A DNA stretch of 47,622 nucleotides, from positions 1 through 47,622 of IMG/VR virus record IMGVR_UViG_3300047359_000583. One strand, 5' to 3'. Shown in pieces: positions 380 through 45,664 of the stretch; position 1 is the first letter of the stretch, and each line of letters opens with the position of its first letter. Source of the stretch: a virus. A program made the position numbers and the translations under genes. The notes under the pieces are model-generated. The model saw only the letters and a list, made by a program, of their open reading frames with translations. It had not been told where the DNA came from and did no database searches.

Positions 380-859
380 TTATCCAAACTTTTTAATTGT
401 CTTTGTTAATTCATCTAAAGATTTACCAACATGTTCACCAAAATCTGCATGAAGATCTTCATCAGCATCTAAAGGCTGCATATCTCTCCACTCTGTATAT
501 TTAGAAACAAACAATTCTGATGCATCCACTATTTTCTTAATATCGGATTTTGCATAGTCCTTTCCATAGTAACTATTAGGATCTACATCCTGTCTTGCTG
601 TTTCGTCAGTAAATGGATTTTTAATATCGATGCCATCGTAATCAAAATTAAAAGCCTCAAATGATTTTAAATGCTTCATTCTTTTCTTTTTCTTTTTTTT
701 GTACTCTTCTTCTGCGTCACCCCTGCCGGCAGGAACATCACCAGAACCTACACCACCATCCATTGGCAATACAACAGGTCCCATTCCGCCCATTCCAGCT
801 GGAGTTATATTTTCATTGATATCATCAATGAATGACTCAAATGTTGGTACGTATTTCAT
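380..859 (-). CDS. Probable internal capsid protein with two targeting-like motifs
   Basis: 159 residues, function unknown. The N-terminus MKYVPTFESF fits the pattern M-K-x-x-x-F-x-x-F shared by many proteins here and resembles the capsid-targeting sequence of T4 internal proteins (MKTYQEFIAEA). Residues 20-47 are rich in Gly, Pro and Met. A run of six lysines and an arginine (54-60) is then followed by a second copy of the motif, MKHLKSFEAF (61-70), and an acidic, helical C-terminal part. The lysine run is encoded by an A-rich tract with eight consecutive A just before the internal ATG. That tract could act as an internal start region, or mark a fusion of two genes. Last gene before the terminator at 323-352. 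Confidence 0.75.
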   Translation of the reverse strand: MKYVPTFESFIDDINENITPAGMGGMGPVVLPMDGGVGSGDVPAGRGDAEEEYKKKKKKRMKHLKSFEAFNFDYDGIDIKNPFTDETARQDVDPNSYYGKDYAKSDIKKIVDASELFVSKYTEWRDMQPLDADEDLHADFGEHVGKSLDELTKTIKKFG

Positions 860-878
860 AGTTGTTTTTGTTTTTCAT

Positions 879-3794
879 TTACCAAGCGTAATCAAAAGTT
901 TCAATTTTAGATATTTGATCCTTAATTGTTTTAGCGTAATTTTTAGCTTCTCTTTCGTAGTAAGATTCAGATTGTCCATATCTTTCTTCAGATTCTTCAC
1001 CCTGTCTAATGTAATCACAATATCTAGAATAGTTATCTAAAATATTTGACATGTGATTAGAAGCATCTCTTAATTTAGCTTCTCTACCTTTAGAGTTTTC
1101 TCCTATTTTAATTTCATCATATCTAGTTTTATTACCACTCGACAATCCGGCTTTAATTTGTTCTGCTAATTCATCAATAGCCTTTTCAACCATTTTATCA
1201 ATTGGTAAAGAAGCTGCCTTGGTAGCTAAAATTTGGTGATATCTGTCTGCGTTAGCTTTCTTAAAAGCTGCATCATCTGTAAATGCAGTTGCACCTTCTT
1301 TTGCTCTTGCTCTGTCACCTCTTAAGTTTTCAGTAGAATACTTCTGTCTAATTAGATCTAAGCTTACAATAATAACTCTATCAGAAACTTCTGCAATTCT
1401 TTTACCATTACTTAAACCAGAAGCACCCCAGCCTCTATATTTCTTGTTTACACCAACTTGATCTGCAGAACCTTTTCTACCATCTTTTTTCCATGAAGTT
1501 GTCTTAGCCCATCTAGACCAGTCGTTAGTATAAAATTCTCTATCACCACCCATAGCTGCTAATAAACACCCGCCACCTGGAATTGTGCTCATTGCATTGT
1601 ATGACCTAGAATCCTGTGGTAAATATGGATTCTCTTTTTCATTATCTGAAATAAAGAAAATAATATTTTTAGAACCACCATGGTTTTTAAATGCTTTTTG
1701 TGGGTTATTGTCTAAAATAAAATCTTCATCTTGTATTTTATCAAGGGCAACTTTAGTCAGTTGGTAAAAACCACCTGCTAATCTAGCTACGTTTTTTCTA
1801 GCGTGTTTTCCTTCTTGGTTACTTTGTAAAATACCTGATAATATAGCACTAGATATTTTTTCGTTTAATACGTTATATTCTGACTCAGTAGTAGCTGATT
1901 CTTCGATAAAACTAGCTAAATGTCCATCATCATCCCATCCGTATTTAGAATCGGCTAAAACAGCTTCAATATCTTTTCTTTTTCCAGTTAATTCAACTTC
2001 TGGATGTCCTCCTGCTGGGCCAATCTCTCTTAATACTTTTAATTCAACTTTGTGTTTCTTTAAAAGTTTTTTAAGTCCTTTTGATTCAGGGTCTGTAGCA
2101 TCCATTATTACAGTAGCTTCACATAATTTTTCGTCTAGCCTATCAAAGAAGTCAAAGTGTTCACTTTGTAAATCTTCACCATACTTTTCGTCCCATATTT
2201 CAGCTAATTCATATTTAGTAACTTTACCTTTATACTTATCCATGATTTCAACATAGATACTACCATATTCATATTCAAAATCTTCACCATAAGAAAGATC
2301 CCATGCCTTTTCAATATCTTTAAATGTAAGCTTTTTGGCTTTGGCTTCAGTAACTACTGATTCTTTTACGAAATTCTTAAGATCATCTGGATCTATAGAG
2401 TATTCTACGTCATCCTCGTCACTTCTAAGAACAACTTCATATTTACTTATGTCCCAAATCTTAAATTCGGCATCTTTATTAAGAGTAGATCCATCTACGT
2501 CGTTAGTTATATCGTAAACATCTCCATCAAAATCATCGCTATGGACTGTAGTTTTAATCTTTTGGCCTTTTTTAAATTTAGCCTCGTTAATAGATTTGCT
2601 TGAGCTATTAATAAAGCTTGCAAATGATTCATGTAAAAATTTATTATTCATTTTTTTTGTATTTTTATTTGTTACTTTATAAGTTTTACCATCGAATTCA
2701 AATTCTTCGCTGCCCTCTTCAATTGCTTTAGCTCTTGCTCCTAAAAATGCGTTACCTTCTCTAACATTATCAGCAGATTCAGTATATAGGTTTACATAAT
2801 TTCTACCTTTTTCAGAGTAAATTGAAGTGATTTTAAATTCACCATCAATTTTCTTACCAGTATCTTTTTTATAGTATTTAGCATAGTAAGCTTTAAAGAA
2901 TAAGTTTGGTTCTAGTTCTCCAAAGAAGTGTGTCATTTTACCCATAAAGAATTTAGCAGATGGATAATAAGTTGTTATATCTGCTTTGGTTTCAGCATCT
3001 AAAACACCTTTATCGAAATCTTTTACAAATTTAGCTTCAGTAACTACTGATTCTTTAACAAGAGAATCTGCGTCTATTGCTATTTCACTTGAAAAAGTCT
3101 TTAAACCATTAACCACAATCATACCATCTTTTTGTATACGAGTAACTTCACCTGAATCGAATGGTTTTTTAGAACTTCTGCTTAGAATAGAAACTTTATC
3201 TCCTACTCTAAATTTAGCTTCAGTAACTACAGATTCTTTAATTCTATACTTTTTCATTAAAGATTCAGCATCATCAATTGCATCTTGTAATTCTTGATCG
3301 CCCAAATCTGCCCAGTATTCAGATCCTCTTTCTCCGTCTAAATAATTCTGAGATATTTGTTCCCATTCATTTTCTGCTTTTCTATCATACATTAAAATAC
3401 TATCAAGGTCTCCGATTCTGTCTACAAGAGCGTTAACGCTATAATTTCTATTATCAGAGCCAGCCATTGGACCATATTCATTAAGTTCTTTAGACTTAGA
3501 AGTTTTATTTAGCTCACCAAGAATTTTAATACCCCATCTCGAAAGTGATACACCATCTTCAGATACATTAAAGTATTTTTTATTTCTAGATTTCCATTGT
3601 TTATGATCTCCGGAAAGTTCAGAAATAATTTTAGTAAATTCTTCTTTAGTAATTACACCATCTTTAATAGCCTCAATAACTGAATTTCTTACACTAGCCG
3701 TTTTACCAACAGTCCTTGCTGGATGGCGTTCTGTATATTTTCGTTTAAGTGTTAGTTTTTTACCTTCACTCAAGAATTCATTAAATTTTTTCAT
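879..3794 (-). CDS. Giant cargo polyprotein with repeated prohead-protease-like sites
   Basis: 971 residues. It begins MKKFNEFLSEG, a T4-type capsid-targeting motif. The peptide ESVVTEA recurs at residues 187-193, 248-254 and 478-484, with variants SINEA (401-405), LCEA (557-560) and ESATTES (632-638). All fit the T4 gp21 prohead protease rule (hydrophobic, any residue, Glu, then cut before a small residue). Cutting would give pieces of about 192, 61, 151, 79, 76, 78 and 334 residues. The pieces starting KFRVGDKV (194) and KFKKGQKI (406) look like small SH3-type barrels. Met382 begins an internal targeting-like segment, MNNKFLHESFASFI. The segment around 566-625 (GHPEVELTGKRKDIEAVLAD) is also found in the 690-residue protein. 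The C-terminal 334 residues match no family I know. Cleavage and packaging are inferred. Confidence 0.8.
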   Translation of the reverse strand: MKKFNEFLSEGKKLTLKRKYTERHPARTVGKTASVRNSVIEAIKDGVITKEEFTKIISELSGDHKQWKSRNKKYFNVSEDGVSLSRWGIKILGELNKTSKSKELNEYGPMAGSDNRNYSVNALVDRIGDLDSILMYDRKAENEWEQISQNYLDGERGSEYWADLGDQELQDAIDDAESLMKKYRIKESVVTEAKFRVGDKVSILSRSSKKPFDSGEVTRIQKDGMIVVNGLKTFSSEIAIDADSLVKESVVTEAKFVKDFDKGVLDAETKADITTYYPSAKFFMGKMTHFFGELEPNLFFKAYYAKYYKKDTGKKIDGEFKITSIYSEKGRNYVNLYTESADNVREGNAFLGARAKAIEEGSEEFEFDGKTYKVTNKNTKKMNNKFLHESFASFINSSSKSINEAKFKKGQKIKTTVHSDDFDGDVYDITNDVDGSTLNKDAEFKIWDISKYEVVLRSDEDDVEYSIDPDDLKNFVKESVVTEAKAKKLTFKDIEKAWDLSYGEDFEYEYGSIYVEIMDKYKGKVTKYELAEIWDEKYGEDLQSEHFDFFDRLDEKLCEATVIMDATDPESKGLKKLLKKHKVELKVLREIGPAGGHPEVELTGKRKDIEAVLADSKYGWDDDGHLASFIEESATTESEYNVLNEKISSAILSGILQSNQEGKHARKNVARLAGGFYQLTKVALDKIQDEDFILDNNPQKAFKNHGGSKNIIFFISDNEKENPYLPQDSRSYNAMSTIPGGGCLLAAMGGDREFYTNDWSRWAKTTSWKKDGRKGSADQVGVNKKYRGWGASGLSNGKRIAEVSDRVIIVSLDLIRQKYSTENLRGDRARAKEGATAFTDDAAFKKANADRYHQILATKAASLPIDKMVEKAIDELAEQIKAGLSSGNKTRYDEIKIGENSKGREAKLRDASNHMSNILDNYSRYCDYIRQGEESEERYGQSESYYEREAKNYAKTIKDQISKIETFDYAW
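2337..3240 (-). repeat. Three DNA copies of the ESVVTEA-coding repeat
   Basis: About 25 bp recur near-perfectly at roughly 2341-2366, 3031-3056 and 3212-3239. On the plus strand the shared core is GCTTCAGTAACTACTGATTC, with a single A-for-T change in the third copy. Each encodes KESVVTEAK or FVKESVVTEA in the 971-residue protein. The near-identity of the DNA, not just the peptide, suggests recent duplication or gene conversion of module ends. Confidence 0.85.
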
Positions 3795-3796
3795 GT

Positions 3797-4192
3797 TTAT
3801 TTAAGTTTTTTTAATATACCGTCTATTTCTGTATATGAGCAATTTGCACCCTTAACTATAAATGATCCATAAGAGATTGAAAGGTTTGCACCTTCACCTC
3901 CAGTTTTTACTTGAGTTTTATATGCTTCTTCTATAGATGCTTGATCTTCAGCAACAGCAACAACTTTAGGTCTAAATCCAGCGCCTACATTATGATCGTC
4001 TAAAGATCTTAAATGCATTTGTTCTCCATTAACTTCTACTGTATTATGTAGTATTAATGCAAAGTGGGTTTCACCCTTACCAGGTAAATCAAAACCATCA
4101 AATGCATATTTGCTAAAATAATATGATCCGAATTTTATTTTTTCATTTACTAAACTATTAGTAAATTCTCCAAATGTTTTTGTATTTTTCAT
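3797..4192 (-). CDS. Small probable internal capsid protein
   Basis: 131 residues. The N-terminus MKNTKTFGEFTNSLVNEK combines the M-K-x-x-x-F-x-x-F targeting pattern with a gp21-like site (L-V-N-E at 14-17), so a mature product of about 114 residues starting KIKFGSYYF is predicted. The rest looks like a compact mixed alpha/beta domain with a conserved-looking RSLDDHNVG segment; the family is unknown. It lies 2 nt upstream of the 971-residue gene and 17 nt downstream of the 617-residue gene, in the same transcription unit. Confidence 0.75.
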   Translation of the reverse strand: MKNTKTFGEFTNSLVNEKIKFGSYYFSKYAFDGFDLPGKGETHFALILHNTVEVNGEQMHLRSLDDHNVGAGFRPKVVAVAEDQASIEEAYKTQVKTGGEGANLSISYGSFIVKGANCSYTEIDGILKKLK

Positions 4193-4209
4193 ATTAGTAT
4201 ATTATTTTT

Positions 4210-6063
4210 TTATATATTCTTAATAAAATCATTAAATGTTTGGAAATCCGTTTTAGTAGATTCTTGCACAACTCCCATAGAGTCTTCCAGTTTAGACTTT
4301 AACTCAGCATACATATTATGTAATGCCTTTGGTGTTAGCTTCTTAAAGAGCTTCTCATCACCGTCTAACATTGCATTTCTTACCTGTGTTGCTGATATAT
4401 TCTTACCAGTTCTAGGGATTTCAAATAAACCAAAGTCATCTCTAACTCCTAGGTCATCTCTATATTCTTGTTTATCTACTTGGAATCCATAAGTTCTCAT
4501 TCTATCACTTCCTGTTCCCCATAATACTGGTTCGTATTTTGGTCTCATTGCATTAAACATAGTGTCAATACCGCCGGTTGGAATTACAAAAACTTCTTCG
4601 ATTGGATATTTAGATTTTAAAGAGTTAATCATTGCTACTTGAGTCTCCTCATCATAAGGTCTCTTAAATGCATCCTCTTTTTTCTTGTTCTTAGCTTTTA
4701 CTAATAATATTACTACTGGGTAGCCATTTTGTTTATGAATAGTTTCAACTACTTTAGCATGGCCTAGTGTAAATGGTTGGAATCTACCAACAAACATATT
4801 AACTAATTTCTTGCCTTGTTCTGGGTGGTCCACCTTTAATGCTTCTAAAATAGGACTTGTTTGTGATTTTAAATCTTGATTATTTAAGTATGTTTGAAAA
4901 TTCATAACCTCATCTTCTTTTACATCTCCAACAATTAGGCTTTCAATATTAGTGACTATTGTGTTTACTTTTGACATTAAGTCTTTATTAATAATATCTG
5001 TTTCTTTAGTTCTCTTTTTTCTAAAGCTACCTAATGCTATTTTAAAAAGCTCAGATAAAACTTTATTGTTTACTAATGATATTGTTTTCTCATTCTTAAT
5101 AAACGCTTTATTAAGTTCAAAACCTGGAAGTGATGCAAAGTCAGCAGAATTAAAACTAGTTCCGATATACTTAGTAGCATGCTTATCAATATAAGCATTA
5201 AAAATAATTGAAATTAGTTCAATATATCTTTCATCAGTTTTTTCTGCGTCTAATTGAATTGTATTAAAATCATAACCGCTCATAAATTCAACTAAGTCTA
5301 GAATAGACAGTTGATACATGTCGGATGGTGTTCTATCATTATTATAATCTCTATCAAATCTTTCTAATTTAAAACTTTTTACATTTTTACCTTCATAGAA
5401 ATTAATAATAAACGAATCTATATCTTTATCTAGAGTATTGTTTAATGCAGCACTAGAAGTAGCAGAATTAAATATATTGTAAACTGCTCTAGTAAAAGAT
5501 TGTTCTTTAAATTTATTTTTAAAAGCCTCTTCGGAAAGTTCTAATATATCTAATAAGTCATTAACTTGATCTTCTGATAATCTACCTTGAAATATAATTT
5601 GAGGTCTTTGTACATCTAATAAATCAGACCAATGATAAAGAATATTTGGGTCTCTAATTACCTTTTTAATTTGACTAGGATTAGTTGAACTTATCGTTTG
5701 TATGTGTGTTAATATTAAATTATTTTTAGGTAAGGCATCGTACTCAATGTCGATTGCTTTTTTAGTTGGTAAATAATCAAAACCAAATTTCCAATCTGTT
5801 GGAAGCTTTTCTAAAAGTTTAGGATCTAAAGATTTAAAATAATTAATTGCATTTTCATAATATTTAACAATAGTCCTATCAACTTTATTCATAGCTATTT
5901 TTGAACCACTTTTATAAAATTCAAATTCTCCATTAGAAGATCTTTTAACATGAAATGAAGAGGCTTGTATCTTTTCAGATATAAGACTTGTTGATTTTAT
6001 TAACTTAATAAAATCTTGTCTATTACTTGATTCAAAATATGTTTTTAGGTTTTGTAATGCCAT
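4210..6063 (-). CDS. HxGH-type nucleotidyltransferase with large N-terminal domain
   Basis: 617 residues. The C-terminal part is a nucleotidyltransferase of the cytidylyltransferase-like (NMN/FMN adenylyltransferase) superfamily. GRFQPFTLGH (426-435) is the nucleotide-binding HxGH-type motif, here T-L-G-H, and ISATQVR (556-562) is the C-terminal ISxTxxR signature. The likely reaction is adenylyl transfer to a mononucleotide such as NMN, but the substrate cannot be read from sequence. The N-terminal ~400 residues are not recognised. A gp21-like site ILEA (405-408) separates the two parts, so the enzyme could be released by cleavage; LISEK (28-31) is a possible N-terminal site. The last residues (FQTFNDFIKN) resemble a targeting motif placed at the C-terminus. 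Cotranscribed with the neighbouring cargo genes. Confidence 0.8.
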   Translation of the reverse strand: MALQNLKTYFESSNRQDFIKLIKSTSLISEKIQASSFHVKRSSNGEFEFYKSGSKIAMNKVDRTIVKYYENAINYFKSLDPKLLEKLPTDWKFGFDYLPTKKAIDIEYDALPKNNLILTHIQTISSTNPSQIKKVIRDPNILYHWSDLLDVQRPQIIFQGRLSEDQVNDLLDILELSEEAFKNKFKEQSFTRAVYNIFNSATSSAALNNTLDKDIDSFIINFYEGKNVKSFKLERFDRDYNNDRTPSDMYQLSILDLVEFMSGYDFNTIQLDAEKTDERYIELISIIFNAYIDKHATKYIGTSFNSADFASLPGFELNKAFIKNEKTISLVNNKVLSELFKIALGSFRKKRTKETDIINKDLMSKVNTIVTNIESLIVGDVKEDEVMNFQTYLNNQDLKSQTSPILEALKVDHPEQGKKLVNMFVGRFQPFTLGHAKVVETIHKQNGYPVVILLVKAKNKKKEDAFKRPYDEETQVAMINSLKSKYPIEEVFVIPTGGIDTMFNAMRPKYEPVLWGTGSDRMRTYGFQVDKQEYRDDLGVRDDFGLFEIPRTGKNISATQVRNAMLDGDEKLFKKLTPKALHNMYAELKSKLEDSMGVVQESTKTDFQTFNDFIKNI

Positions 6064-6065
6064 TG

Positions 6066-7367
6066 TTATCTACCGTATTTAATAATTCCCATTAATTGAT
6101 TAATTGCAGCAAAAGTTCCAGTTAGTTTATAAGTATGTCCTTTATATCTAAATACAAGGCCTTCGGTTGGTATGATAGATTCAATACCTCCAATTCTATC
6201 TAAACGTTCTAGTTCTTTAGCTACTTTATTTATCTGAGTTATATCTCCGCCCTTTTTAATCTTATCAGCTTCTGTTCTAATTTGATTATGCAGTCTCTGC
6301 ATTTCTTTATCTGGATTTGCAGCCACAAAGTTAGAAGCGTTCTTTAAGATAACAGAACCTAATTCTAAGAAAAGATCTTCAAAAGGTCTAATATTTTCTT
6401 TATATTTCTTTTTAACATCTTCTTTGTCAAATCTTTTAACAGCAGCTGCTTCATCTTTTCCTATTTCCTTTGCAAGACTTCTTAGATTAAGTGTTTTCTT
6501 ATCTCCATAAGCCCATCTTAATAATAAGCCTTCTTTATAGTCTTGTTGTAAATCGGGGAAGTTTTTATCAATAGTTTCTCTCCACCACATTTCATGATAT
6601 CTAGAAACCTCATCTGCATCTGTTAATCCATAACGATCTCTTAGCGCTTCAACCTTTTTTATAAACTTAAGTTGGTTCTTTTCAAAATCAATATCCTTAC
6701 CTATCTTAATAATTTGTGGTGGAATAACTGTAAAGACTTTACCAATATTAGCGTTAACTTTTTCTAAAGCAGCAGCAATTGATTTACCGTACTTAGGCTC
6801 TTCGCCAATTATATTACCATTACCATCTGTTATTTTAATTCCATGAAATTGAATAACGTCTCTATCATAATAGATAACATTTGGGTTTTTAGAGTAGATA
6901 AGCTCCATGTTCATAAAGTTCTTACCATTATCAAATGCTTCTAAATCTTTATCAGATAACTTGACTAGAGAAGTTGCTAAATCTTTAGCAGCAAAAATAT
7001 AAGTTTCTTCAACTAATTTTGATGCATGTCCAGTAAACATATCGATAATACCATTAAGGTCTAATGGGTTTGCCATTTGTCCTTTATTTCTAGCAAACAT
7101 TGCTTGGCCATCCTTTACAGTGACAAAAAGATTTTGCCCATCAGTTTTTTCAGTAGGCTCTTCTTCAAAATTAAGTTCACCGCTAAGTCCAGATTGGATT
7201 AATTTTTTAAAGTCTCCAAATGTTAATTGTTTATTATCAAATGGATGTGACATGTGTCCTGCGGCACCACCTTCAAGTATTAAAGCCTCATTAACCGAAA
7301 ATGAAGGAGCCTCTTTCAAAGTCCTTCTTTCCAGTACAAATTCTCTATAAGATTGTAGTTTTTTCAT
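6066..7367 (-). CDS. RNA-ligase-like nucleotidyltransferase with capsid-targeting start
   Basis: 433 residues. The covalent nucleotidyltransferase (ligase / capping) motif I is visible as EKTDGQN, with Lys74 as the expected adenylated residue and KxDG intact. FMNMELIYSKNP looks like motif III, KEGLLLRW (278-285) is motif IV, and the Lys-rich DKKTLNLRSL that follows fits motif V. The expected activity is ATP-dependent ligation or end-joining of nucleic acid, most like phage RNA ligases. The N-terminus MKKLQSYREFVLERRTLKEAPSF is a targeting-type sequence, with gp21-like sites at LKE/A (19-20), VNE/A (27-28) and ILE/G (32-33). The mature enzyme would then begin near residue 33, just before the catalytic domain. 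It starts 1 nt after the stop of the 690-residue gene and ends 2 nt before the 617-residue gene. Confidence 0.75.
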   Translation of the reverse strand: MKKLQSYREFVLERRTLKEAPSFSVNEALILEGGAAGHMSHPFDNKQLTFGDFKKLIQSGLSGELNFEEEPTEKTDGQNLFVTVKDGQAMFARNKGQMANPLDLNGIIDMFTGHASKLVEETYIFAAKDLATSLVKLSDKDLEAFDNGKNFMNMELIYSKNPNVIYYDRDVIQFHGIKITDGNGNIIGEEPKYGKSIAAALEKVNANIGKVFTVIPPQIIKIGKDIDFEKNQLKFIKKVEALRDRYGLTDADEVSRYHEMWWRETIDKNFPDLQQDYKEGLLLRWAYGDKKTLNLRSLAKEIGKDEAAAVKRFDKEDVKKKYKENIRPFEDLFLELGSVILKNASNFVAANPDKEMQRLHNQIRTEADKIKKGGDITQINKVAKELERLDRIGGIESIIPTEGLVFRYKGHTYKLTGTFAAINQLMGIIKYGR

Positions 7368-7368
7368 A

Positions 7369-9441
7369 TTATGCTAGTGATGATTGTAAAATTCCTGCAC
7401 ATTTTCCGTAGTCACCATCGCATTTTTTTAATATGCCGGCAACAACCTCGTCTGCTTTAGCCTCATCAAATTCTTCTCCAAAAGCTTTTTGTAATACTTC
7501 GTATGCGTATTCTTTAAAATCTTCTTCAGATTTAATTTCAGCCTCGTTTACAGATTCAAAAAGAGAATTAAAATCATCTAATAAAGATTGTCCCATTCTT
7601 TCTTCTTTAAGCTCTTGTAAAAATAGAGCAGTTCCTTCAACAATCCCTTGGCCAGACCATCCTGCCGCATTAGCGATATCTGAATAGTATTTGTCTAGAA
7701 TCCTTTTTAAAGTAGTAGTTCCTAGTTTTACAAAGTGTCCACCTAGACCTGGTAACTTAATCTCTAAAGCCGCCATTTTACCTTTAATGTTTCTAGAAAC
7801 AATTTTTTCTCTATGGAAGTTAGCGTCTGTCATTGCTTCTTCAAAAAGATATTTAACACAACCTCTAATAGACTCATGAGACATTGCACCAAAATCTGGT
7901 AAAGTCTTATAGAATATTTTCTTATATTGTGTAACTACCTTTTTAGCATCTCTTTTGCCGTCAACTTTAATAGCTTCATTAACTACTGATTCATTGCACA
8001 TTGAAACTAATTCTTGTGCAATCTTTTTTGCTTTAGAACCTTTATGTCCATAAGATTCAACTGTATCTAAAGCATCTTCCATTTCCATGCCATGTAATTC
8101 TCCCATGTCTCCTCCTCTTTCATCTAAAAGATCCTGTAAGATATTTTCAGCTTCTGATTCATTAACTACTGATTCAAAATAATCTTCATAGTCAGAGATT
8201 GAGTCTGGTCCCCATACATCAGCTAAAACTTTTTCGATATCTTCTCTTTTACCGGTTAATTTAACTTCTGGGTAACCGTGGTCACCTTCTTCTTTTTGAA
8301 CTTTCATTTTAACTTTATTCTTCTTTAAAGATGTAGTTAAGGGTTTAAATTTAGTTGGGTGTATATCGTCATCGTTTCCAAATTCTATACCCGAAAGAGA
8401 TGTTTCATTAACAACTGATTCAAAGGTTGATGATGGCATTAGTTCTTTATCGCCATATATGTCTGCTACCAACCAATTTTTATTCTCTTCATCCCATAAA
8501 TAAACCCACTCAGCGCCGGCTCCATTTGAAACATCATTTAAATATTGGTCTACTTTTTTATATTGTCCTGTTGTTTGCATGTCACCGCTTTCACCACGAT
8601 CTCTTCCGTAAAAAATAGTATAACCTCTAGTCGGATTAGAAAAACTATGTTTCTTACCTATTGATTTATCTAAAAATGAAATACCAGCCTTTCCTAATTT
8701 CATTAATTGCTTAATGTCACTTTCGCTATATCCTTTTAACATTGGTAGCATGTGCTCTGGGTAACCATCAGAATGTACGTATGTTGATGTGATTTTACCA
8801 CTCTTACTAAGAATACCAATTTGAGATCTAGTTGATTCGTTAACCGCAAGCGACTCAAATGCTGGAACTAACTCTGCGTTTCCGTCTACATGTAGCATAT
8901 ACCATTTACCATCTCGCTCGTCAAAAAGATAAACATATTCTGCCCAACCAATATCTTCTAGATATTTAGACATGTTTTTAATCTTTCCTTTTTGATTTTC
9001 CATGTCGCCATAGTAATTCATATACCTTGGGTCTTCTTCTAATCCAGAGCTACCTCCATTTTTAAGAACCATGTTTAGTGGCGAACCACCCTTTAAATAT
9101 GTCATCTTAATAAGTGGTAACATTGCTTCTGGATAAGAATCAGCATGTGTGTATACACTTTCTATATTACCTCTTTTGTCTATTTTACCAAAATGGCCTC
9201 TAGTGGCTTCTGTTAGTAATAAAATAGACTCATTAAGGCCTAAATTTTTTAACTTGTCAAAAAATTCAAATCTTTTTTCTTCTTCTAATTCTTTTATTCG
9301 AGTTACTCCATATTCAGATAAAAGTTCTTTAAATAGATCTGCTTCGTTAGATCTTTTAGCGTTCTGTTTTTTCTCTAATGCAACAGTATCTTTTTCATGT
9401 TTTGCTGCAGAAAATTCAGCAAATGAATTTAATTTCTTCAT
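7369..9441 (-). CDS. Second cargo polyprotein with ESVVNEA sites and duplicated module
   Basis: 690 residues. It begins MKKLNSFAEFSAAK, a targeting-type start. Protease-like sites recur: ESILLLTE/A (71-79), ESLAVNE/S (196-203), ESVVNE/T (341-347), ESVVNE/S (423-429), ESVVNE/A (484-490) and ESVNE/A (629-634). They would give about seven pieces of 57-144 residues. Pieces 79-202 and 203-346 are diverged copies of one module: each starts with G-x-I-x-x-x-G-x-I-x-S, has Y-x-H-(A/S)-D-x-Y-P-E-x-M-L-P, and ends with a W-(A/V)-Y-(L)-x-D-E region. Piece 347-428 shares the PEVxLTGKRxDIExVLAD segment with the 971-residue protein. Biochemical function of the pieces is unknown. First gene of the cargo block, 32 nt after a GATATATA box. 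Confidence 0.8.
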   Translation of the reverse strand: MKKLNSFAEFSAAKHEKDTVALEKKQNAKRSNEADLFKELLSEYGVTRIKELEEEKRFEFFDKLKNLGLNESILLLTEATRGHFGKIDKRGNIESVYTHADSYPEAMLPLIKMTYLKGGSPLNMVLKNGGSSGLEEDPRYMNYYGDMENQKGKIKNMSKYLEDIGWAEYVYLFDERDGKWYMLHVDGNAELVPAFESLAVNESTRSQIGILSKSGKITSTYVHSDGYPEHMLPMLKGYSESDIKQLMKLGKAGISFLDKSIGKKHSFSNPTRGYTIFYGRDRGESGDMQTTGQYKKVDQYLNDVSNGAGAEWVYLWDEENKNWLVADIYGDKELMPSSTFESVVNETSLSGIEFGNDDDIHPTKFKPLTTSLKKNKVKMKVQKEEGDHGYPEVKLTGKREDIEKVLADVWGPDSISDYEDYFESVVNESEAENILQDLLDERGGDMGELHGMEMEDALDTVESYGHKGSKAKKIAQELVSMCNESVVNEAIKVDGKRDAKKVVTQYKKIFYKTLPDFGAMSHESIRGCVKYLFEEAMTDANFHREKIVSRNIKGKMAALEIKLPGLGGHFVKLGTTTLKRILDKYYSDIANAAGWSGQGIVEGTALFLQELKEERMGQSLLDDFNSLFESVNEAEIKSEEDFKEYAYEVLQKAFGEEFDEAKADEVVAGILKKCDGDYGKCAGILQSSLA

Positions 9442-9473: not shown

Positions 9474-9482
9474 ATTATATAT
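9474..9482 (-). promoter_or_regulatory. GATATATAA box upstream of the cargo operon
   Basis: GATATATAA on the minus strand, 32 nt before the ATG at 9441 and overlapping the stop codon of uvsW. Same 8-mer as five other pre-gene sites in the window; candidate late promoter for the cargo block. In T4 the late -10 box is TATAAATA, so the equivalence is inferred. Confidence 0.4.
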
Positions 9483-10983
9483 CCCCCTCAAAAGTTACGT
9501 TTTTAATATCATACTTAAACTTCTGTTCTTTATAGATTTTCTGCCTAGCTTTTGAGTGTCTTATTAAGTAGTTATCCCAATCCGGTGAGCTTAAGTCATC
9601 TACAAAGTCAATAATGTTTACACTATCCTTTGATTTATGTTGCCTTAAACCTCTACCAATAGATTGCCTAATGATTACTTCTGATTTAAATGATTCTGTA
9701 AAGAATATGTTGTGGATTTTCTTGATGGATATACCAGTTGAGAATGTACCGTATGAAGCGACGATAACGACTTCTTCTCCGGCTTCCATTTTCTTTTTAT
9801 ATTCTTCTCTAATATCTTTATCAATTCCGCCATCAACATAATAAACTATTTTATTACTTTCTTGCCTAAGTTTGTCATATATCTTTCGGCCATGTTCAAT
9901 TCTGTGAAAAAGAACGAGGCTATTTCTCTTAACTCTTGAAATTACACTTGTTATAAAGTTAAGTCTTCCAGGGGAATTAATTATATAGTTCTGTTCAAAT
10001 TTAAAAACATCCTTGCTTTCATATCTATTCTGTGACATCTCTCTAAAAGCATCCTTTGTAGATTGTGCAGCATAATCCATTTTAATTACCTTAACGTGAC
10101 ATTGTGCAATATGTCCTTCATTTTGTAAAAAGTTTGCAGACACCTCCGTGATTACCGGTCCAGTATAAGCCATAAGAGTAAGTCTATCCAATGTGTTTGC
10201 TTTTGGTATTGTACCAGAGAGTCCGCTTCTATATTCAGCGTTAACACATTTTTGTAGAATAGTTTTAATTGATGTAGACTTGGCCTTATGTGTTTCATCA
10301 ATAATAACAGCATCAAACTGTTCAAAATATTCTTTATCTTTTTTAACAAGGGATTGATAAGTACCAACTACTACATTTCTACCCGGCCTAATCTTTTGGC
10401 CAGAATAGATTTGTTGTACTTTAATATTTGCCCTGCCTTTCCAATTATAGTCTAAAAAATCTTCAGTGGCCTGTACTACAAGAGAAACATTAGGTACAAT
10501 AAAGAGTATTCTTTTTGCCTTTTGTTTTTCTAACATATATGCTACTGTAAGAAATGAAATTAAAGTTTTCCCGGCAGAAGTTGCTAATTCAGATAAGCAC
10601 TTTCTAAATTTAAGGATGTTAAATGCAGCCTCAATCTGATAATCTCTTGGAGTTATTTGAGAGCCCTCAAAAAATTCTAAGGCCCATTCGGTAAAAGTTT
10701 CTTGATTAATATTTCTATCAAACAATTCAGTAATACCATTTATTTTTAATTCATATTTATATTCTTTACAAACATTCATCACTTCTCGCCAAAGACCAGA
10801 AGGAATCCATTTGTCATCTTTTATATAAGATATGTAGCCATCCCATAGTCCCTTTTTAACCAATGGGTGAAATCTCCAATTTTCTACCCTACGGTTTAAA
10901 GAAATATTGAGCTGTTCGATTTCCATTTCTGTAGCCGAATCAACTCTTAGCAATTGCTTATTATCTGTTAAACTTATTTCCAC
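9475..10983 (-). CDS. uvsW: UvsW-like ATP-dependent DNA/RNA helicase
   Basis: 502 residues, the same size as T4 UvsW. Superfamily 2 helicase motifs are clear: Walker A ATSAGKT (134-140), DETH box (229-232), GLSGT after it, VASYGTFSTGIS and QSIGRGLRQ in the second RecA domain. The N-terminal ~100 residues (NWRFHPLVKKGLWDGYISY) match the UvsW accessory domain. In T4 it unwinds branched DNA and R-loops, drives branch migration, and helps switch replication from origin to recombination mode. The start is GTG at 10983; an in-frame ATG at codon 20 exists, but family similarity begins before it, so GTG is preferred. It follows the uvsY-like gene by 21 nt, as these genes cluster in T4. Confidence 0.95.
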   Translation of the reverse strand: MEISLTDNKQLLRVDSATEMEIEQLNISLNRRVENWRFHPLVKKGLWDGYISYIKDDKWIPSGLWREVMNVCKEYKYELKINGITELFDRNINQETFTEWALEFFEGSQITPRDYQIEAAFNILKFRKCLSELATSAGKTLISFLTVAYMLEKQKAKRILFIVPNVSLVVQATEDFLDYNWKGRANIKVQQIYSGQKIRPGRNVVVGTYQSLVKKDKEYFEQFDAVIIDETHKAKSTSIKTILQKCVNAEYRSGLSGTIPKANTLDRLTLMAYTGPVITEVSANFLQNEGHIAQCHVKVIKMDYAAQSTKDAFREMSQNRYESKDVFKFEQNYIINSPGRLNFITSVISRVKRNSLVLFHRIEHGRKIYDKLRQESNKIVYYVDGGIDKDIREEYKKKMEAGEEVVIVASYGTFSTGISIKKIHNIFFTESFKSEVIIRQSIGRGLRQHKSKDSVNIIDFVDDLSSPDWDNYLIRHSKARQKIYKEQKFKYDIKNVTFEGDI

Positions 10984-14697: not shown

Positions 14698-15072
14698 TTA
14701 AATTCTTTTACCCATTGCAGCACCAAGAGCGGCACCAACTAATCTGGAAGTTAATAAATCGTAAAAAATACCTTTTTGAATTCCTAAAACTTTAGCAATA
14801 ACCTTTCCAATTGATTTACCTAATGCAAATCCAGCTAAACCACCTATAATAGAACCTAGAATACCTTCATTAGTCATCTCTTCATTTAAACGATCTAAAT
14901 CATAAGTACCATCCTTTCTTTTATATTCAGCTTCAAATGCTTCAATAGCCGCATCTACTTCAGCTTCTAATTCTGGAGTCCACTCTTCTTGTAAGCCCTC
15001 TTTGACTAAAGAATAGTCCTGCTCACTAATTTCGTTTTCTACTAAATAATCGTTAAATGTTTTCATATTCAT
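14698..15072 (-). CDS. Targeted internal protein with glycine-zipper tail
   Basis: 124 residues. The N-terminus MNMKTFNDYLVENE fits the capsid-targeting pattern, and SLVKEG (21-26) is a possible prohead-protease site. The middle is acidic. The C-terminal part (about 69-124) is a glycine-zipper-like hydrophobic segment: GILGSIIGGLAGFALGKSIG, then a second stretch VGAALGAAMGKRI. Such segments often insert in or pack against membranes. A packaged, membrane-active protein could take part in DNA entry, but this is inference. A GATATATAC box lies 15 nt upstream. Confidence 0.7.
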   Translation of the reverse strand: MNMKTFNDYLVENEISEQDYSLVKEGLQEEWTPELEAEVDAAIEAFEAEYKRKDGTYDLDRLNEEMTNEGILGSIIGGLAGFALGKSIGKVIAKVLGIQKGIFYDLLTSRLVGAALGAAMGKRI

Positions 15073-42835: not shown

Positions 42836-44119
42836 TTATTGTGGCATCTTTAAAAATACCTTTTTACTCTCCGTATCGATTCTTGTGATTTGTACTGTAA
42901 TTTTATCACCAGAATTAAAGACGTCTATTAAGCCATCTTCAAGTTCACTAATATGTAATAAACCAGTAACACCATCTTCAATATTTATAAATAAACCATA
43001 CTCTTTTTTAGTCTTAATCGTTGCCTCGACAGTCGATGGAATTTGATATCTTTCAATAATATCATTCCATGGATTAGAGACTACGTTATCTTTTTGAGTT
43101 AGTGTAATTTTAGTGTTAGAAATAATATCTTTTACTTTAAATTTAATTTCATCACCTGGTTTAATATCTCTAGACTTAAACGCCGGGAGCGTTAATTCAT
43201 CTAGGTCATTAATGTGTATCATACCAGTAAGACATTTATTAAATTCAACAAATACGCCATATCTAGCAGAGCCAGTAACTGTACCAGTATATTCTTCTCC
43301 CATATTATCTTTAATGGCCTGAATTTCTGTTGGTATTAGTGCTTGTAAATATTTTCTATGTGAAACCACAATAGTTCCTCTATCTGCTGAGAAGCTTACA
43401 GGTACTACATAAATTTCAGTACCAATAATAGATTCAAAGTCGTGAAGTTTATTAATTCCAGCAAGTGAACCTGGCATAAAGCATTCTACTCCTTGAACTT
43501 CTATAATATAACCACCATTCTCGATCATGTTTTTAACAGTACCAACCCAAGCAGTATTACCTTCTTCAACTCCAGCTCTTAAGTCTAAGAATACCTTATG
43601 TTTTACACCACCTGAAATCGAACCAAGTACATGTGTGTTATTTTTATTAGAAGTAATTAAAACTGCAGTTTCTTCTCCTGGTTGTAGTGCTTTAACAAGA
43701 GCAGTCTCTTTATCATACTTAACATAAATCAATTCTCTATAGCCAATATCGACTGAAATAAATTCTTGATTTACAGCAAAGATCTTACCTTCATATATAG
43801 AACCTTCTGTAATTAATGGTAAGAGAGGATTTTGCTGATTAGCATGTTCCATAAGATCATAAAGTTCTTGAGCATAAGATTCTCTCGAATATACTCTATC
43901 TCCTTTTTTAGTCTTAATATGTGGGTTTGGTTTTCTGGTTTTAGAAGGGCATGTGGCCTCGTAAGCATCCCACATGAATTCACCATTTTCATCGTAAAAG
44001 CTCTGTTCAGTTTCTGGAGCTTGTTCTTTAACTTCGATTTGCGGTTCTGGAAGTTTATCAACCGTTTTGTCTAGTGTTACTGTAGTAATTCTAGGTCTTT
44101 TGTTTTTTTCGTTGTTCAT
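42836..44119 (-). CDS. Phage-encoded ribosomal protein S1 homologue
   Basis: 427 residues. A charged N-terminal region (1-100) is followed by four S1 RNA-binding domains: about 106-170 (GSIYEGKIFAVNQEFISVDIG), 188-258 (GNTAWVGTVKNMIENGGYIIEV), 274-345 (GEEYTGTVTGSARYGVFVEF) and 358-427 (STVEATIKTKKEYGLFINIE). The last two have the classic GVFVE / GLFIN and G-(M/L)-(I/L)-H-I-(N/S)-(D/E)-L core. Bacterial S1 (about 550 residues, 4-6 domains) brings mRNA to the ribosome. Phage copies of ribosomal proteins are known. Here it could help translate phage mRNAs, which lack AGGAGG sites. It could also be an RNA-binding protein with another job. Transcribed leftward from the divergent region 44120-44267. 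Confidence 0.85.
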   Translation of the reverse strand: MNNEKNKRPRITTVTLDKTVDKLPEPQIEVKEQAPETEQSFYDENGEFMWDAYEATCPSKTRKPNPHIKTKKGDRVYSRESYAQELYDLMEHANQQNPLLPLITEGSIYEGKIFAVNQEFISVDIGYRELIYVKYDKETALVKALQPGEETAVLITSNKNNTHVLGSISGGVKHKVFLDLRAGVEEGNTAWVGTVKNMIENGGYIIEVQGVECFMPGSLAGINKLHDFESIIGTEIYVVPVSFSADRGTIVVSHRKYLQALIPTEIQAIKDNMGEEYTGTVTGSARYGVFVEFNKCLTGMIHINDLDELTLPAFKSRDIKPGDEIKFKVKDIISNTKITLTQKDNVVSNPWNDIIERYQIPSTVEATIKTKKEYGLFINIEDGVTGLLHISELEDGLIDVFNSGDKITVQITRIDTESKKVFLKMPQ

Positions 44120-44506: not shown

Positions 44507-45664
44507 ATGAACTTACATAACTTCGCAGATTTTAAACTTTTAACAGAGGCTAAGAATTCACTTAAGATGAATGTGCCTTCTGATATATTAGATCTACATA
44601 AACTATTTAAAAAGAATGGTAAAGAACTTTTTATAGTTGGTGGTGCAGTTCGAGATGCGCTGCTTGGTAAGAAGCCAAAAGATTTTGATTTAGCAACAGA
44701 TGCCTTCCCGGCAGAAGTTATTGAAATAGTTACTAATGCAGGTTACACAACCACTGGAGAAGTTGGACATCAATTTGGTGTGGTTATTGTAAATGTACCG
44801 TCAGATCCAGCTGGAGTTGAGGTTGCAACATTTAGAGAAGATATTGGTAAAGGCCGAAGACCTGATGCCGTGGAGTACTCTACAATAGATAAGGACGTTC
44901 TAAGGCGAGATCTAACTATCAATGCATTATTCTATGACATGGGAACTGAAGAGGTTGTCGATCTTGTAGGTGGCTTAGAAGATATAAAGAATTCAAAGAT
45001 TAGAACTGTCGGTGTTGCTGCAGATAGATTTGCAGAAGATCCACTTAGAAAATTAAGAGCCTTAAGATTTGCTGGTAGAACTGGAAGTAAATTAGAAAAA
45101 GAAACTGCTGAAGCTATACTAACAGATAATAGTTTAGAAGGTATTAGTCCAGAAAGAATTAGAGATGAATTTAAGAAATCAGTAACGACTGCAAAGTCTG
45201 CTAAGAAATACTTGGAAATGGTTTCTGAATTTAAGTTATGGAATATTATGTTTCCGACATTACCTATTAGTCAAAAATTCGTTAACACAAATACTTGGTT
45301 AATTCAACTAACTCAATTATTTATGGCAAACGATACAGATCTTCTTAAGAAAGAAATGAATAAGGCTACATTTTCAAACGATGAAATTAGTGGAGTTATA
45401 TTCTTAAAGAACTTAATGGCATTTAATCCAGCCAATGTGTTTGATACACATAAGCAATTTAAAAATAGCGGACTTGATAAAAAGGTTATTTTAGAATTTG
45501 TAAAGATTAATAGACTAGATGCTAAAATGATTAAAGCCTTTTTTAAATACAAGCCATCTACAAATGGTAGAGATGTTATGAAAGAGTTTGGTTTAAAAGG
45601 ACCTGCAATATCTGATAAAATCAATCAAATAGAGGCTGATAAATTTAAAAAACTTTTAAAGTAA
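44507..45664 (+). CDS. cca: CCA-adding enzyme (tRNA nucleotidyltransferase) with targeting-like start
   Basis: 385 residues, class II polymerase-beta type tRNA nucleotidyltransferase. The catalytic head is intact: FIVGGAVRDALLG (42-54) and DFDLATD (59-65) give the GG and DxD metal site. GRRPDAVEYS, RRDLTINALFYD (133-144) and FAEDPLRKLRALRFA (175-189) are the template and nucleotide-binding motifs. It would repair or add the 3' CCA end of tRNAs, or add nucleotides to other RNA 3' ends. Unusually, it begins MNLHNFADFKLLTEAK, a targeting-like motif with a gp21-like LTE/A site (12-15). This hints that the enzyme is packaged, though it is on the opposite strand and under an early-type promoter. 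The C-terminal body is shorter than in many bacterial enzymes. Confidence 0.93.
   Translation: MNLHNFADFKLLTEAKNSLKMNVPSDILDLHKLFKKNGKELFIVGGAVRDALLGKKPKDFDLATDAFPAEVIEIVTNAGYTTTGEVGHQFGVVIVNVPSDPAGVEVATFREDIGKGRRPDAVEYSTIDKDVLRRDLTINALFYDMGTEEVVDLVGGLEDIKNSKIRTVGVAADRFAEDPLRKLRALRFAGRTGSKLEKETAEAILTDNSLEGISPERIRDEFKKSVTTAKSAKKYLEMVSEFKLWNIMFPTLPISQKFVNTNTWLIQLTQLFMANDTDLLKKEMNKATFSNDEISGVIFLKNLMAFNPANVFDTHKQFKNSGLDKKVILEFVKINRLDAKMIKAFFKYKPSTNGRDVMKEFGLKGPAISDKINQIEADKFKKLLK

Follow-up and report, generated by a model that had tools for sequence, protein, structure and literature searches.

Two adjacent genes of the virus record IMGVR_UViG_3300047359_000583 are best explained as encoding a pair of enzymes that are packaged in the phage head, matured by the prohead protease, and able to act on RNA ends, most likely those of broken tRNA, from injection onward. 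We put the probability of this reading at roughly one half. The stretch that we analyzed, here called the window, is a 47.6-kb fragment of that record (47,622 nucleotides), whose source is described as a marine T4-like virus. The original prediction, made from the letters of the window, had pointed to a ligase-like protein of 433 residues with a KxDG motif and, beside it, a protein of 617 residues with the motif GRFQPFTLGH. Both open reading frames (ORFs) are there at these lengths, on the minus strand and separated by 2 nt; we call their products the KxDG protein and the HxGH protein. The features of the pair are as follows (here and below, a slash marks a putative cleavage site).

6066-7367, minus strand: KxDG protein, 433 residues, a predicted divergent RNA-ligase-type covalent nucleotidyltransferase.
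7329-7367, minus strand: leader of the KxDG protein, MKKLQSYREFVLE, residues 1-13, resembling the T4 capsid-targeting sequence (CTS) in having the ipII/ipIII spacing, with a putative cut after E13.
7270-7284, minus strand: second putative protease site, L-I-L-E32/G, just ahead of the ligase domain and conserved in homologues.
7140-7148, minus strand: motif I codons K74-T75-D76, K74 being the putative adenylylated lysine, as judged from the sequence and its invariance.
4210-6063, minus strand: HxGH protein, 617 residues in two domains, matched by Pfam CTP_transf_like (2.6e-9, residues 423-563) and phrog_3041 (2.3e-15).
4936-6063, minus strand: RNA-ligase-fold domain of the HxGH protein, residues 1-376, with a partly decayed active site (from Foldseek and a residue tally).
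4276-4812, minus strand: HxGH nucleotidyltransferase domain (NMNAT/PPAT fold), residues 418-596 (from Pfam, NCBIfam cyt_tran_rel at 1.4e-9, and Foldseek).
4213-4260, minus strand: CTS-like tag at the C terminus of the HxGH protein, STKTDFQTFNDFIKNI, after a putative VQE601/S602 site and with a presumed targeting function.

The kinship of the KxDG protein with RNA ligases is well supported by its motifs and, more weakly, by the fold matches of its predicted structure, which narrow the earlier label of "ligase-like" specifically to RNA-ligase-like. In motif I (E73-K74-T-D76-G77), E73, K74, D76, and G77 are invariant in all 28 aligned relatives, which are 36-81% identical to the window protein. 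Motifs Ia (R93-N-K95), III (E155), IV (E402-G403), and V (K414) follow in order and are invariant in the same relatives, and the order of strands in the AlphaFold2 model agrees with the order of motifs. When this model is compared with the folds in the PDB, the best eight matches are all RNA ligases (archaeal Rnl, Trl1, T4 Rnl1, and Rnl2). Outside the protein's own family, a viral structure library likewise returns many named matches that are RNA ligases and a few that are DNA ligases. Motifs IV and V lie near the C terminus, after a helical insert of ~215 residues between motifs III and IV; a mid-protein KEGLLLRW, considered as motif IV, was rejected because it is not conserved in distant members. 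K414 stands ~18-19 residues before the C terminus, and the C-terminal domain that follows motif V in Rnl1 and Rnl2 is not present.

Relatives of the KxDG protein are encoded on 276 stretches of viral contigs, and the match is therefore not a matter of chance. The only annotated phages with the protein are Microcystis phage Mel-JY01 and two huge phages; the search found no relative in a Synechococcus phage, and among prokaryote genome contigs it matched a single weak fragment. Pfam, PHROG, and NCBIfam have no family that covers the window protein. Pfam RNA_ligase does not match it at the gathering score (the best relative reaches 17.1 against 27 bits) and aligns at motif I only, in 6 of the 28 members and always below the cut-off, and searches of PDB sequences with the protein or its profile returned nothing. 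Judged from its sequence and its model, the KxDG protein would be a divergent RNA-ligase-type enzyme outside the Rnl1 and Rnl2 groups, and we predict with moderate confidence that it joins RNA.

Its partner had been described as an HxGH enzyme. The motif is indeed there, but the first ~376 residues, which form a second RNA-ligase fold, had been overlooked. In the AlphaFold2 model of the whole protein (predicted local distance difference test score, pLDDT, 78), Foldseek matches this N-terminal domain to Trl1 (1.3e-7) and to T4 Rnl2 (~4e-6). EKIQA stands where KxDG would be expected and D replaces the E of motif IV, and the active-site lysine, kept in 32 of the 33 aligned homologues, is lost in that of the huge phage. 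The C-terminal domain carries the NMNAT-type motifs GxFxPxHxGH (GRFQPFTLGH, residues 426-435) and ISxTxxR (ISATQVR). The HxGH motif is invariant in 33 aligned relatives, as are G426, H435, S557, and R562, and Foldseek matches the domain to NadM (2.9e-5) and CoaD (3.9e-5).

The two genes keep close company. Of 80 close loci, 74 have the HxGH gene downstream of the KxDG gene, mostly within 50 nt and never farther away than 2.3 kb; in the remaining six the contig ends within 2.5 kb. In the cultured phage Mel-JY01 (WWT39297.1), in the huge phage LR756508, and in many marine viruses, HxGH and KxDG domains are part of one polypeptide, and the fusion ORF of the marine viruses runs to as many as 2052 residues. 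A kinase joins the HxGH and KxDG domains in 28 of 86 ligase-containing ORFs, and a CCA enzyme joins them in two (L168 and L156); these counts are lower bounds, as many contigs are truncated. The fused kinase is a P-loop domain of the AAA_33/zeta-toxin type, whose nearest solved structure is L-seryl-tRNA(Sec) kinase, and in L168 an HD domain follows the CCA-adding enzyme. On the 39 contigs listed, the ligase end of the polyprotein ORF lies ~0.5-2.4 kb upstream of terminase. Other arrangements were also seen. In LR756508 (L084, 4483-7230), for which a query found no viral-contig relative, a ParB-like domain is fused ahead of HxGH and KxDG. In the polyproteins of L159 and L161 the HxGH and KxDG domains flank a putative ATP-dependent zinc protease domain (PF05618), and L044 (8001-15242) has tandem ligase/HxGH pairs, two on one contig, the second diverged from the first.

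Head packaging of both proteins in the window virus, as originally proposed, is strongly indicated by their leader motifs, by a gp21-type protease in relatives, and by mass spectrometry reports on HxGH homologues. In the T4 CTS, residues 4 and 7 direct targeting and residues 8 and 10 direct processing, and gp21 cuts after L/I-x-E; C-terminal processing is known for T4 gp21 and Alt (PMC9026906). The T4 ipII/ipIII leader, as read from NC_000866, is MKTYQEFIAE. The strict form of this leader, [FY]xx[FY][ILVM]xE, is present in 27 of 27 nonredundant unfused KxDG homologues, though the surrounding N terminus varies. An [LIVM]xE/GG site precedes the ligase domain in 27 of 27 unfused homologues, and a site of the same kind is found in most fused polyproteins. 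In HxGH homologues the tag is at the other end: FxxF[ILVM] occurs within the last 20 residues of 34 of 35, versus 6% of control windows, and an LxE[SA]-type site lies ahead of it in 26 of 35.

The strict N-terminal motif is also enriched over whole sequences, with 3 observed versus 0.04 expected in the window and 8 versus 1.3 and 9 versus 0.6 in two longer relatives. The excess is modest in the whole genome of S-SCSM1 (5 versus 2.1, some of them not plausible leaders), and the leader rule thus holds less well there than among the kin of the window. Genome-wide, the C-terminal FxxF[ILVM] shows no enrichment (1 observed versus 1.3 expected, 9 versus 8.5, and 2 versus 6.0), so it is conservation among HxGH orthologues, together with one short virion protein reported by mass spectrometry, that makes the case for this tag. 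Two short proteins, L203 36627-36836 (S-SCSM1 ORF93, annotated as a virion protein) and L167 8563-8946, have similar N termini, MPAVSKAQQRF and MPSTSVKQRAF, and end in FKEFLEYIE and FNEFKTEYK, respectively, both endings being CTS-like.

A search of ten longer relatives found a gp21-type protease (Peptidase_S77 above the cut-off) in eight. Across eleven polyproteins, [LIV]xE/[AGS] sites occur in linkers at 2.9 times their density in domains (Fisher p 3e-5, for sequences that are homologous to one another), and three control patterns show no such excess. Finally, HxGH proteins have been reported by mass spectrometry in cyanophage virions, including those of S-SCSM1 and S-CREM2 (PMC9602691, PMC10665884). 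The S-SCSM1 protein begins MKSFLQFLKE/A and is homologous to the HxGH protein of the window (pairwise E 2e-8).

The main rival holds that the packaged proteins serve NAD (nicotinamide adenine dinucleotide) or nucleotide metabolism. The HxGH domain would then regenerate NAD+ as an NMNAT-like adenylyltransferase, the kinase of the polyproteins would be NadR-like, and the ligase-fold proteins would play an accessory part. We consider this unlikely. NMNATs are the nearest relatives of the HxGH domain in both sequence and fold, but the domain falls far below the NMNAT equivalog cut-offs (TIGR01527, 35.3 versus 181.2 bits; NadM, 27 versus 397). The arrangement of kinase and HxGH domains resembles NadR, yet the fused kinase matches AAA_33/PSTK and not the NadR kinase family. 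The cyanophage virion proteins have been interpreted as NMNAT (PMC9602691, PMC10665884). This rival leaves the constant fusion with an RNA-ligase-type enzyme unexplained, and an NAPRTase was found in just one of the ten longer relatives, the huge phage. The earlier suggestion that the HxGH enzyme acts in NAD resynthesis is not supported by these results.

A third enzyme is encoded elsewhere in the window. A CCA-adding enzyme with a similar targeting-like start had been predicted at 44507, and an enzyme of the CCA-adding type is confirmed there; its gene adjoins one for an RNA-binding protein.

44507-45664, plus strand: CCA-adding/poly(A)-polymerase-type enzyme with the leader MNLHNFADFKLLTE/A, matched by PolyA_pol (9.7e-33) and PolyA_pol_RNAbd (1.3e-7).
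42836-44119, minus strand: protein of 427 residues with S1 RNA-binding domains (Pfam S1, 1.2e-24).

The leader of the CCA-type enzyme resembles those of T4 IPI and IPIII, and it is a homologue of this enzyme that L168 and L156 have fused to HxGH and KxDG domains. Its two domains score above the Pfam cut-offs (113.6 versus 23 bits for PolyA_pol and 31.7 versus 22 bits for the RNA-binding domain), and the protein is below the equivalog cut-offs for both activities (PRK13299, 178.5 versus 290; PcnB, 187.1 versus 305.65). In the relative G003 ten tRNA genes stand directly ahead of the CCA gene, and in two relatives 21 of 26 tRNA genes lack an encoded CCA. These two observations and the adjoining S1-domain gene would fit a second alternative, in which the proteins serve ordinary tRNA maturation and RNA metabolism in late infection, their FxxF leaders reflecting association with the scaffold and their presence in virions being incidental. 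This alternative seems decidedly unlikely because the exact T4 CTS spacing is kept while the rest of the N terminus diverges, the polyprotein genes lie just upstream of terminase, and cleavage-type sites are concentrated in linkers.

We rank lowest, as improbable, the idea that the packaged KxDG protein joins DNA ends, as a polynucleotide ligase that repairs or circularizes injected DNA. In its favor, ATP-dependent DNA ligases also have KxDG motifs, the gene for a UvsW-type helicase is nearby (9475-10983), and the protein resembles RNA ligases only weakly in structure. Against it, none of the best eight PDB matches is a DNA ligase, motif V is too close to the C terminus for an OB domain such as DNA ligases typically have, and the fusion partners are a CCA enzyme and a PSTK/PNK-like kinase.

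On the preferred reading, of packaged enzymes acting on RNA ends, the pathway could run as follows. During assembly, the FxxF tags would bind the prohead core; the KxDG and CCA-type proteins bear theirs at the N terminus, the HxGH protein at the C terminus. A gp21-type protease would then cut after [LIV]xE, either trimming the tags or splitting the polyprotein, and the mature enzymes thus freed would enter the cell alongside the DNA. Once inside, the KxDG enzyme is predicted to take an adenylyl group onto its own Lys74 and to seal RNA ends. The largely decayed ligase-fold domain of the 617-residue partner may hold the RNA or the ligase, and the HxGH domain may contribute a nucleotidyl transfer to this pathway. 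The CCA-type enzyme could rebuild or complete 3' ends; depending on the lineage, ends may be made ready or restored by a kinase or a CCA enzyme. The RNA in question would probably be tRNA, and the outcome its repair; that such repair counters immunity by tRNA cutting is a guess prompted by the fusion partners.

A broader formulation is more tentative, and we hold it as a possibility that is somewhat doubtful as a whole. It describes a head-packaged RNA-repair kit in which the RNA ligase would represent a new family and be accompanied by the ligase-fold/HxGH partner and, depending on the lineage, by a PNK/PSTK-like kinase or a CCA enzyme. The kit would be made as a polyprotein or as singly tagged proteins, which the prohead protease would cut, and its injection would serve to reverse the tRNA cleavage of host immunity before phage expression. 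Phage RNA repair of the T4 Pnkp/Rnl1 kind is known as made after infection. If the broader formulation is true, a packaged set would be a pre-emptive counter-defense against tRNA-cutting immunity, and it would make the timing of such defenses testable.

Several points weigh against the preferred reading. The AlphaFold2 model of the KxDG protein is modest (pLDDT 70; predicted template modeling score, pTM, 0.57), and its eight best fold matches are weak (E 0.017-0.66). An hhalign comparison of the KxDG and HxGH-protein profiles found no link (probability 0.3%), so it is the fold that speaks for a kinship of the two ligase-like domains. The set of end healing, ligation, and CCA addition that the original prediction had envisaged is found only in part: ligase, HxGH, and CCA or kinase domains do occur within single polypeptides of relatives, but no end-healing enzyme was found in the window, where a search for an AAA_33 kinase gave nothing, and only 2 of the 10 longer relatives have such a kinase. 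The polyprotein counts, moreover, come from homologous and mostly truncated contigs. The CCA-type enzyme may have phage tRNA maturation as an ordinary alternative or additional role. Last, the authors of the mass spectrometry studies noted that the cyanophage HxGH virion proteins were possibly contaminants (PMC9602691, PMC10665884).

The pair sits within a gene block (380-9441) immediately downstream of the UvsW-type helicase gene, and baseplate-like genes and a head-tail-adaptor-like gene lie farther upstream. The targeting-like ends of the original prediction are present throughout, as six adjacent genes from 380 to 9441 have a T4-like FxxF tag at one end; the exception to what had been expected is the HxGH protein, where the tag is C-terminal and not N-terminal. 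The other members of the block are as follows.

380-859, minus strand: putative cargo protein, 159 residues, leader MKYVPTFESFIDDINE/N.
879-3794, minus strand: putative cargo protein, 971 residues, leader MKKFNEFLSE/G, with internal ESVVTE/A repeats.
3797-4192, minus strand: putative cargo protein, 131 residues, leader KTFGEFTNSLVNE/K, resembling T4 IPI.
7369-9441, minus strand: putative cargo protein, 690 residues, leader MKKLNSFAEF, with internal ESVVNE repeats and a phrog_1987 domain.

The two larger proteins have a phrog_5922 domain in common, and ESVV[TN]E, which resembles internal prohead-protease sites, occurs three times in that encoded at 879-3794 and four times in that encoded at 7369-9441. 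Outside the block, a gene at 14698-15072 (minus strand) encodes a glycine-zipper protein of 124 residues with the leader MKTFNDYLVE/N, and similar genes in the relatives G003 and G005 encode proteins that start MKTFNKYLVEE and MKTFNKYIVEE.

The components of the preferred reading are already known separately, as CTS-packaged internal proteins (PMC9026906), phage RNA repair (PMC7824862), and injected multidomain proteins (PMC5512222). In the literature searched, of which coverage was partial, we found no report of a head-packaged RNA ligase and no described family for the KxDG ligase or the ligase-fold/HxGH fusion. From the leader motif and the pattern of cleavage sites one could derive a rule for recognizing injected cargo in the sequences of uncultured T4-like marine viruses, and Mel-JY01, with HxGH and KxDG domains fused in one protein, offers a cultured relative.

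The window resembles the T4 IPI, IPII, and IPIII system (PMC9026906) in its N-terminal [FY]xx[FY][ILVM]xE spacing, in the gp21-type protease of its relatives, and in the grouping of cargo genes in a block. It differs in that the cargo includes apparent enzymes of RNA or nucleotide chemistry, the HxGH tag is C-terminal, internal ESVV[TN]E sites suggest polyproteins, and packaging is read from sequence. Phage RNA repair by Rnl1, Rnl2, RtcB, Pnkp, and CCA enzyme (PMC7824862) offers a second parallel, as a ligase-type enzyme, a kinase, and a CCA enzyme co-occur across the relatives; those sets, however, are described as encoded functions and not as head-packaged ones. Unlike Rnl1 and Rnl2, the window ligase is without the C-terminal domain, has the long helical insert, and comes paired with an HxGH enzyme. 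The N-terminal domain of the 617-residue protein shares the fold of T4 Rnl2 and of the fungal tRNA ligase Trl1, a ligase-kinase, but in contrast to Trl1 it is fused to an HxGH domain and not to a kinase/phosphodiesterase, with its altered motif IV and, in the huge-phage homologue, without the lysine. The cyanophage virion NMNAT/cytidyltransferases (S-SCSM1 ORF91 and S-CREM2 ORF154; PMC9602691, PMC10665884) have a homologous HxGH domain and, in S-SCSM1, a T4-like leader, but stand alone, without the N-terminal ligase-fold domain. Finally, the polyvalent proteins that phages inject (PMC5512222) are likewise encoded by large multidomain ORFs near virion genes and combine several enzymatic activities in one chain. 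They differ in their set of domains and in having a built-in metallopeptidase where the proteins described here have apparent prohead-protease sites, and in the window the corresponding enzymes are encoded by separate genes.

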